From assembly GCA_030684935.1 (NCBI GenBank), contig JAUXXH010000001.1, forward strand, positions 124,001-188,000: 64,000 bases of DNA, in the 5' to 3' direction. Origin of the DNA: Pseudolabrys sp. Its GTDB lineage: Bacteria; Pseudomonadota; Alphaproteobacteria; Rhizobiales; Xanthobacteraceae. Positions 4,516 through 5,846 of the stretch are shown one piece after another (the stretch's first letter is position 1; each line of letters begins with the position of its first letter). A program made the translations under genes and the position numbers. Under the pieces are notes generated by a model. That model had not been told where the DNA came from. It saw only the letters and a list, made by a program, of their open reading frames with translations, and made no database searches.

Positions 4516-5574
4516 TCAGGGAAACAGCGCTACCTGATCGATGCCCATGGCCTCGGGATAGCCCAGCACCAGGTTCATGTTCTGGATCGCCTGGCCGGAG
4601 GCGCCTTTCACCAGGTTATCGAGCGCCGAAATGACGATGGCCCGGCCCGGCACGCGGTCGGCGGCAACGCCGATGAAAGTCATGTTGGAGCCGCGCACAT
4701 GGCGCGTTTGCGGCGTCTGGCCGAACGGCAAAACATGCACAAACGGCTCCTTCGCGTAGAACTTTAAAAGTATCGCATGAAGCTCCTCGGGGGTCCGGCC
4801 CCTTTTGCCCCGGACGTAGATGGTCGAGAGGATGCCCCGGTTCATCGGCACCAAATGCGGGGTGAAGGTCACAACCACATCCCGGCCGGCGGCGGCGGAG
4901 AATTCCTGGTCGAGTTCGGCCATGTGCCGGTGGCCGCCAACGCCGTAGGCGTTGAAGCCCTCCGACACCTCCGAGAACAGCATCGCCTCTTTGGCCGCCC
5001 GCCCCGCCCCGGTCATGCCGGACTTGGCGTCGATCACGATCTCATCGAGGTCGATCGCCTTAGCCCGTATCAGCGGGATCAGCGGCAGCTGGGCGCAGGT
5101 GGTGTAGCAACCGGGATTGGCCACCAACCGCGCCTGCTTGATGGCGCGCCGGTGGATTTCGGCCAGGCCGTAGACCGCCTCTTTCTGCAATTCCGGCGCG
5201 TGATGCTCGTGGCCGTACCATTTGGCATAGGCCGTGGTATCGGCCAGCCGGAAGTCGGCCGACAGGTCGACGATCTTGGTCGACGGCGCCTTACTCAGCA
5301 CCTCTACCAAGACCTTCTGCGTGGTGGCATGGGGCAGCGCGCAGAACACCAGATCGAGCTTCATCGACGCCCAGTCGAGCCCGTCGAGGGCGACCAGCGT
5401 CGGCAGCTCATAGGGCGAGAACTGCGGAAAGACATCGCGCATCGCCTTGCCGGCGCTGCGCTCGGCGGTCAGCAGGGCAATCTCGGCGCGCGGATGCCGC
5501 AACAACATCCGCACCAGTTCGGCGCCGGTGTAGCCGGAGGCGCCGAGCACGCCGATCTTCGCCTTGGTGGCCAT
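4516..5574 (-). CDS. argC: N-acetyl-gamma-glutamyl-phosphate reductase
   Basis: A 352-residue ArgC, which catalyses the NADPH-dependent reduction of N-acetyl-glutamyl-5-phosphate to the semialdehyde, the third step of arginine synthesis. The Rossmann motif GASGYTGAEL is at residues 11-20 and the catalytic cysteine is C156 in NPGCYTTC. The length fits the long (type 1) form. AAGGA lies 8-12 nt upstream of the ATG. No other arg gene is adjacent. The gene is preceded by an unusually long leader of about 195 nt with its own promoter, a possible Arg-rich leader peptide and alternative hairpins, annotated separately. Confidence 0.96.
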   Translation of the reverse strand: MATKAKIGVLGASGYTGAELVRMLLRHPRAEIALLTAERSAGKAMRDVFPQFSPYELPTLVALDGLDWASMKLDLVFCALPHATTQKVLVEVLSKAPSTKIVDLSADFRLADTTAYAKWYGHEHHAPELQKEAVYGLAEIHRRAIKQARLVANPGCYTTCAQLPLIPLIRAKAIDLDEIVIDAKSGMTGAGRAAKEAMLFSEVSEGFNAYGVGGHRHMAELDQEFSAAAGRDVVVTFTPHLVPMNRGILSTIYVRGKRGRTPEELHAILLKFYAKEPFVHVLPFGQTPQTRHVRGSNMTFIGVAADRVPGRAIVISALDNLVKGASGQAIQNMNLVLGYPEAMGIDQVALFP

Positions 5575-5769
5575 TGTCTTATTCCTTCAGGTCGCCGCCG
5601 GTCCGCCGGCGGGCATAGCATGCCTCCCTTGCGGGAGGGTTCGGTCCGGATCGGGCAAGAGCTGGGATCGAGAGTGCCGCGGCCAAATCCGGCGGCACGG
5701 GCAAACGCTAACGGCGCGCCCGTGCCGGAGCGGCACGGCGGCGATACGCGGGTGCGGTCGAAATGGTCA
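5575..5769 (-). promoter_or_regulatory. Structured argC leader with alternative hairpins
   Basis: Read on the minus strand, this leader holds four segments that can pair in competing ways. Segment 1 (5732-5738, CCGTGCC) pairs with segment 2 (5720-5726), 7 bp. Segment 2 (5718-5726, GGCACGGGC) pairs with segment 3 (5694-5702), 9 bp perfect. Segment 3 (5692-5698, GTGCCGC) pairs with segment 4 (5674-5680), 7 bp. Further down a 6-bp stem (CCTCCC/GGGAGG, 5623-5638) closes on a GCAA tetraloop, and a GC-rich stem lies near 5596-5615, just before the argC ribosome site. The order 1:2, 2:3, 3:4 is that of amino-acid attenuators, but no U-tract follows segment 4. Pairings were read by eye, not folded. 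Confidence 0.5.
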
Positions 5770-5770
5770 T
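5708..5770 (-). CDS. Putative Arg-rich leader peptide upstream of argC
   Basis: A 20-codon ORF, ATG to TAG, encoding MTISTAPAYRRRAAPARARR. Six residues are Arg, including a run of three (codons 10-12) and RARR just before the stop. The ATG falls about 7 nt after the -10 box of the predicted argC promoter, so the message would be leaderless, which alphaproteobacteria tolerate. The three-Arg run lies just upstream of hairpin segment 1, and the stop lies just past segment 2. This is where a stalled or finished ribosome would change the pairing. Caution: random frames in this GC-rich DNA are often Arg-rich, so chance is a real alternative. Confidence 0.4.
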   Translation of the reverse strand: MTISTAPAYRRRAAPARARR

Positions 5771-5776
5771 AGCCGC

Positions 5777-5805
5777 GATATAGGCCCGGGCCCGATCCGG
5801 GTCAA
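5777..5805 (-). promoter_or_regulatory. Predicted sigma70-type promoter of argC
   Basis: On the minus strand, TTGACC (5805-5800, five of six consensus bases) is followed by exactly 17 nt and then TATATC (5782-5777, four of six). The predicted start of transcription is near 5770, giving a leader of about 195 nt before the argC ATG at 5574. The spacer contains the palindrome GGCCCGGGCC. It is one of the best consensus promoters in the window. It has not been tested. Confidence 0.55.
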
Positions 5806-5821
5806 GAATACCCCATAAACA

Positions 5822-5846
5822 GAAGGCCGCCAACGCGGCGGCCTTC
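5822..5846 (-). terminator. Hairpin terminator downstream of metallo-hydrolase gene
   Basis: Perfect 10-bp inverted repeat (GAAGGCCGCC / GGCGGCCTTC) with a 5-nt loop, 25 nt after the stop of the metallo-hydrolase gene on the minus strand. The following bases TGTTTA give only a weak U-tract. It separates that gene from the argC promoter just downstream, which it would insulate. Confidence 0.6.

Follow-up and report, generated by a model that had tools for sequence, protein, structure and literature searches.

Results

The argC locus and its leader

The window, by which we mean the whole stretch of 64,000 nucleotides of Pseudolabrys sp. DNA analysed here, has a G+C content of 65% and carries argC on its minus strand at 4516..5574. 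The product, N-acetyl-gamma-glutamyl-phosphate reductase, scored 420 bits with the NCBIfam equivalog model TIGR01850, whose cut-off is 233.6, and argC would be the gene controlled by the element described below. A promoter TTGACC-N17-TATATC upstream of argC, reported in a preliminary description of this DNA, was located where claimed, at 5805-5777 of the minus strand: the -35 box TTGACC lies at 5800..5805 and the -10 box TATATC, after a 17-nt spacer, at 5777..5782. The ATG of a short ORF, MTISTAPAYRRRAAPARARR, is found 6 nt downstream of the -10 box; because of this closeness, the leader transcript probably starts at or beside the A of the ATG, which would make the ORF leaderless. The ORF occupies 5708..5770 on the minus strand and ends with the stop codon TAG (5710-5708). 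Its description as 20 codons, six of them for Arg with three in a row, agrees with the sequence; the three consecutive Arg codons, CGC CGC CGT, are codons 10-12 (5735..5743, minus strand) and represent the putative control codons.

Four segments of the minus strand could form competing helices, and the three pairings 1:2, 2:3 and 3:4 proposed earlier proved complementary at the coordinates claimed. Segment 1, CCGTGCC (5732..5738), overlaps the Arg run and pairs with segment 2, GGCACGGGC (5718..5726), the predicted antiterminator arm, which is situated inside the leader ORF and can pair with either segment 1 or segment 3. Segment 3 extends over 5692..5702; it includes GCCCGTGCC at 5702-5694, while the 3:4 helix draws on GTGCCGC at 5698-5692. 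Its pairing with segment 2 would form an antiterminator, and its pairing with segment 4, GCGGCAC (5674..5680), a terminator hairpin of which segment 4 is the 3' arm. The stretch past this predicted hairpin, TCTCGATCCCAG (5662..5673, minus strand), is T-rich in the family and degenerate here, and the weak point conceded at the outset, that no U-tract follows 3:4, is true of the window copy. Between the end of the leader ORF and argC lie 133 nt, and between the end of the conserved pairing and argC 99 nt. A further short hairpin can be seen at window positions 5638-5623; the script scored for the window copy not this one but a longer hairpin nearer argC. On the other side of the promoter, a hairpin resembling an intrinsic terminator (5817..5846, minus strand; 10-bp stem GAAGGCCGCC/GGCGGCCTTC, then TGTTT) was read from the sequence behind the upstream gene for a metallo-beta-lactamase-fold protein, parting that gene from the argC promoter.

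The window gave no gathering-level match to a described RNA family (Rfam library release 15). An Rfam scan of six leader loci with E values up to 1 returned only two weak matches, both in locus L239; they lie a long way from the leader, and their scores are far below the gathering scores. The combination of TTGAC, 18 bases and TA, followed by an ATG 6-10 bases past the -10 box and an ORF of 12-40 codons, occurs once on both strands of the whole window, at 5770. Of 20,000 random 300-nt window pieces, 4.5% contain an ATG-initiated ORF that spans 12-40 codons and encodes RRR and five or more Arg, and the caution that Arg-rich ORFs arise by chance was thus fair for the window alone; this doubt was removed by the conservation of the leader in relatives.

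Conservation in the genus and the family

The preliminary description had pointed to relatives as the place to look for the short ORF and its pairing. Among 43 genomes of the genus, 41 had an argC match and 37 upstream regions were read, four partial argC genes being left out. All 37 keep an Arg-rich leader ORF with 4-8 Arg; under fixed scripted criteria, RRR with at least five Arg was found in 34 of the 37 and RRR behind the promoter pattern in 33. A covariance model built from 44 sequences (R1, E up to 0.01) matched 194 of 296 family genomes. Forty of these matches, from 24 genera, were inspected, and every one has a leader ORF encoding three or more Arg, with RRR in 38 and a TTGAC box ahead in 39. 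A broader model of 74 sequences (R2, E up to 0.001) matched 191 of the 296 genomes and 34 of 47 genera, counting five genomes with E above 1e-4 and one genus (g23) represented by such marginal matches alone. In the genome of the window itself, the model search gave one match at 8.8e-14; the next, at 0.07, falls inside a gene, and 11 further weak matches have E values of 0.10 to 0.73. Named carrier records include Pseudolabrys, Rhodopseudomonas, Afipia and Bradyrhizobium: among the 59 named loci L031-L089 (L090-L110 lie outside this set), 27 give a match with E below 1e-5, in every case ahead of argC.

Among 397 genomes of the order, 21 gave an R2 match. Of these, 17 belong to the same family; of the four outside it, L239 has a real Arg leader ahead of argC, and the other three matches look like chance. 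Inspection of 12 extra or marginal R2 matches showed that L204, L205 and L239 precede argC or an argC operon, while L119, L206, L207, L208, L237, L238, L240, L241 and L242 were rejected as chance, being in reading frames or having no leader. The L205 leader looks decayed, its three Arg codons being scattered.

In the window genus, the leader lies immediately upstream of argC. In records of Rhodopseudomonas and Bradyrhizobium, the gene after the leader is not argC but one with an FMN_bind_2 domain (PF04299), and in one Bradyrhizobium the leader, the FMN_bind_2 gene, a TIGR01851-type argC and the TIGR01850 argC follow in order. The stretch between leader and argC holds an FMN_bind_2 protein in L037 (2324-2998), and an FMN_bind_2 protein together with a TIGR01851 argC in L061 (1218-2863). 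With other genes in between, the leader belongs to the transcription unit rather than to the start of argC, an arrangement that argues against regulation at the ribosome binding site of argC.

Leader features were compared in 89 family sequences, a set that contains at least two loci twice (L036/L175 and L039/L169), as do the 86 sequences derived from it; L176, L190 and L191 were excluded as the same genomes as L035, L054 and L038. TTGAC with a spacer of 17-18 nt is present in 86 of the 89 leaders, and the gap between the -10 box and the ATG is 6-9 nt in all 89, as measured with the best-scoring box within 3-12 nt of the ATG. The leader peptides have 16-29 residues, including 3-9 Arg. A run of at least three CGN codons is found in 85 leaders, at six different distances (24-39 nt) from the ATG and always in frame with it, a count that is independent only for the 45 model-found leaders, in which the ATG was set by the first position of the model, the ATG of the genus set and seven others having been picked partly by Arg content. 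The remaining four of the 89 have no such run. An in-frame Arg run behind a close promoter points to translation from a leaderless start.

Pairing and compensatory change

As judged from the aligned sequences, the pairing of both mutually exclusive helices is clearly kept across the family, which bears out the expectation of the preliminary description on this point. In alignment A2 (74 sequences, free of the duplicate pairs L036/L175 and L039/L169), 93.8% of the cells are paired for 1:2, 87.4% for 2:3 and 94.0% for 3:4, against 23-63%, 37-60% and 29-67%, respectively, in controls with slid partners. Energies tell the same for the two competing helices: when partners were swapped between sequences, the mean duplex energy rose from -20.0 to -18.3 kcal/mol for 2:3 and from -15.2 to -14.3 kcal/mol for 3:4, the native value lying beyond all 20 swaps in both cases.

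Compensatory change, taken by itself, makes a moderate case. Cells with a change in both partners number 13 for 1:2, 25 for 2:3 and 20 for 3:4 in A2; 2, 0 and 0 of 500 shuffles, respectively, reach these counts, and slid versions give 0-3, 2-20 and 1-8 cells. The cell counts and the score that exceed the shuffles are, however, inflated by relatedness. Counted as pairs with change on both sides, the numbers are 1, 4 and 2, which 313, 162 and 268 of 500 shuffles reach, and so do slid versions (1-7 pairs for 2:3, 1-4 for 3:4). The number of pair types is reached by 34 of 500 shuffles for 2:3 and 194 of 500 for 3:4. In the genus-centred alignment A1 (44 rows, 43 distinct), there are 2, 7 and 3 double-change cells for 1:2, 2:3 and 3:4, numbers that 103, 0 and 39 of 500 shuffles attain; here, 2:3 alone clearly beats the shuffles, also on pairs (3 of 500), while one slide gives 9 cells against its 7. 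A single base of segment 3, column 132, pairs with its partners in both segment 2 and segment 4 in 43 of the 74 sequences (among them C-G-C in 22, G-C-G in 5 and T-A-T in 5), and it breaks the 2:3 pair in 24 of 74 and the 3:4 pair in 22 of 73.

The predicted terminator and ribosome-footprint folding

Three sequences without an exact 3:4 anchor (L003, L153 and L158) were excluded from the T-content and footprint sets, leaving 86. In these, the 12 bases after 3:4 contain on average 4.8 T, compared with 2.0 for 97 similar hairpins of the window, and at least five T among those 12 bases are found in 46 of the 86 compared with 4% of the similar window hairpins. At least four consecutive T within 14 nt of 3:4 are present in 18 of the 86 and absent from the window copy.

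To model the ribosome, all bases up to 12 from the start of the A-site codon were removed before folding. Helix 3:4 is predicted to form (P>0.5) in 84 of the 86 sequences when the ribosome sits at the stop codon and in 22 when it sits at the run's first Arg. The window copy has a predicted 3:4 probability of 0.90 in the former state versus 0.01 in the latter. The change exceeds 0.5 in 60 of the 86, with no such switch in the other 26, and in L023 and L173 the scored hairpin is absent in both ribosome states. Stalling suppresses 3:4 in 64 of 86 sequences, as opposed to 21% when the bases from footprint to stop were shuffled. Folding without a ribosome gave a 3:4 probability of 0.08 for the window and a family mean of 0.68; because 3:4 forms in this state in 63 of the 86 but not in the window, the default state without a ribosome may differ between species.

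Arginine leaders beyond the family, and argC loci without them

In f20, another family of the order, a TTGACA box precedes a 16-codon ORF with Arg codons (for example, MITAATSTRRRILIQR or MSPAFTRSRRSIFIQR) in all 12 genomes searched. All 12 also have a canonical terminator, a GC hairpin followed by a T run, between this leader and argC. In footprint folding of 11 of the 12 (L261 was left out), the predicted terminator probability was 0.91-0.99 with the ribosome at the stop in all 11 and fell to 0.5 or less on stalling in nine.

Within the family of the window, 105 genomes had no R2 match. Of 20 that were sampled, 16 had an argC match and 15 a readable upstream region, and no promoter-proximal Arg leader was found in the 320 nt upstream of argC in these 15. 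Two of them, L332 and L336, have an RRR ORF without the promoter. In L328, a hairpin resembling 3:4 stays upstream of argC, and the leader ORF is replaced by a long inverted repeat that resembles an insertion. A promoter-like motif, GTCTTTCG...GACATG.GAA.GGTGTA, precedes argC in loci that lack the Arg leader (L245, L331-L334 and L337, and also L048-L050); it is perhaps another means of argC control in genomes without an Arg leader.

Wider scans covered 350-450 nt upstream of argC, a span from which leaders placed before longer operons would escape. At the level of the order, argC was matched in 83 genomes and 81 loci were scanned (the window's own locus and one partial gene being excluded); the argC start was found in 67, one of them without upstream sequence. 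Two loci passed the promoter criterion, both from f20, and a third f20 locus was spotted by eye; a further candidate, L285, has a GTG start and lies near an rpsI-like gene. At the level of the class, 64 of 142 genomes had an argC match, and 26 of the 29 other loci scanned gave a start. No RRR-type ORF with an ATG start was found in these 26 loci; four such ORFs start with GTG or TTG (L355, L370, L364 and L375), and those of L355 and L370 fall in rpsI-like sequence. An rpsI-like gene lies just upstream of argC in at least 13 of the 26 readable class-level loci, which belong to other orders; because argC so often follows this gene elsewhere, the leader seems to be tied to argC loci that have a promoter of their own.

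Discussion

Enterobacteria control their arginine genes through ArgR. The claim of the preliminary description that the classical repressor is lacking here was upheld: Arg_repressor (PF01316) was found in none of 20 genomes, comprising 12 of the genus (among them the 89.6% complete genome of the window) and eight of other families in the order, a sample that does not extend to Bradyrhizobium and Rhodopseudomonas, while the search worked in control genomes, 9 of 14 of which matched. This absence raises the question of how arginine synthesis is regulated in the genus and the eight other families. No description of an arginine attenuator, or of an argC leader of this kind, was found in the open-licence literature, older subscription work being outside that search.

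The observations are very probably explained by a conserved transcription attenuator that is ribosome-mediated, has a leaderless ORF, is specific for arginine in sensing charged tRNA-Arg, and controls argC. We favour this reading, which is also that of the preliminary description, chiefly on three grounds: the leader is conserved, a second family has an Arg leader too, and the footprint model agrees. ORF and pairing are both conserved, and 34 of the 47 genera are matched by R2, one of them marginally. To judge from the promoter spacing, RNA polymerase would start at the ATG of the leader ORF, and a ribosome would load directly onto this leaderless start. When arginine is ample, the ribosome would pass the Arg run, reach the stop codon and cover segment 2, whereupon 3:4 would form and transcription would presumably end before argC. 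When arginine is scarce, the ribosome would stall at the Arg run and cover segment 1, leaving segment 2 free to pair with segment 3; 3:4 would then be blocked and argC transcribed in what would be its response to arginine. In Bradyrhizobium and Rhodopseudomonas, the unit controlled in this manner would be an operon that ends in argC.

It is possible, but considerably less probable, that the leader and the stalling at Arg codons are as described and that the 3:4 decision works in the genus through Rho or RNA stability rather than through intrinsic termination. The window copy has no U-run, and TTTT or a longer T run within 14 nt is limited to 18 of the 86 family sequences, as such a route would allow; against it speak the enrichment of T directly behind 3:4 across the family and the canonical terminator that f20 has in the same place. 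Translational control, in which a stalled or reinitiating leader ribosome alters access to the argC ribosome binding site, appears improbable. It could draw on a further weak hairpin that lies 60-73 nt before argC in 14 of the 37 genus members, but 10-47% of shuffles match this hairpin in 12 of the 14, the leader ORF and the pairing end 133 and 99 nt before argC in the window, and the gene after the leader is not even argC in the Bradyrhizobium and Rhodopseudomonas records. The sequence of that further hairpin differs between species. Both routes, Rho-dependent and translational, had been offered as alternatives in the preliminary description; the T-rich stretch of the family and the f20 terminator have made them less likely, and each keeps a share of the probability.

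Very little speaks for a conserved RNA that needs no translation, its Arg codons being a by-product of pairing sequence of the CGCCGCCGC type. Segment 1 does overlap the Arg run, and the DNA is 65% G+C; yet all 85 leaders with a CGN run have it in the frame of the promoter-proximal ATG, at six distances (the ATG being partly chosen by Arg content, and independently of it in 45), and f20 keeps its Arg run in other surroundings. That an Arg-rich ORF and hairpins came together by chance in GC-rich DNA has a negligible probability. Such ORFs with RRR do turn up in 4.5% of random 300-nt window pieces, but this origin is refuted by the whole-window scan, in which the arrangement of promoter, ATG and ORF is unique, and by conservation in relatives, from all 37 genus members read to the wider family.

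Besides attenuation in cis, the attenuated leaderless RNA (~100 nt) and the strongly basic RRRR peptide might also act in trans by analogy with rnTrpL and peTrpL of Sinorhizobium meliloti, a rather unlikely extension that, if true, would mean that arginine status is broadcast to other genes. Leaders of the Bradyrhizobium type from several genera share a MINAAT-like peptide beginning, which lies outside the pairing segments. Attenuation in cis alone does not demand such a recurring start, which could also reflect plain common descent.

The attenuator would provide a concrete candidate answer to the question of arginine regulation for a large part of one family, including the Bradyrhizobium and Rhodopseudomonas records. 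As far as the literature found shows, arginine would thereby join the amino acids that are sensed by ribosome-mediated attenuation of their own pathway. The family also offers many natural variants with which to study leaderless attenuation and the weak terminators of GC-rich genomes.

The classical his, trp, leu and ilv attenuators of enterobacteria share with the argC leader the control codons, the segments 1-4, a stop codon near segment 2 and a terminator, putative in the argC leader, before the first gene. Translation of their leaders begins at a Shine-Dalgarno start, whereas the leader described here is leaderless by prediction and its amino acid is arginine. Arg codons are also found in two leaders of other function. 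The rbfL leader of Staphylococcus aureus senses arginine shortage by pausing at Arg codons, but it has two rare Arg codons and controls translation of a biofilm regulator rather than a gene of arginine synthesis (PMC13009471). The speF leader of Salmonella likewise combines Arg codons with an arginine response of speF; unlike the argC leader, it governs ornithine decarboxylase, in polyamine synthesis, at several levels (PMC6386406). Among alphaproteobacteria, uORFC-8-2 before cysS of Rhodobacterales is a uORF with tandem control codons and attenuator features that was also found by comparison, its codons being for Cys and its gene cysS (PMC8632094). A close parallel is trpL of S. meliloti trpE(G) (rnTrpL/peTrpL), whose leader ORF is leaderless and starts at its ATG (refs PMC7298713, PMC10117765). 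The argC leader differs from it in having Arg codons and argC in place of Trp codons and trpE, in the weak U-run of the window genus and in being known from sequence alone; the two have in common an alphaproteobacterial host, codons for the amino acid of the pathway and, by prediction in the argC leader, a leaderless ORF and a terminator that competes with an antiterminator.
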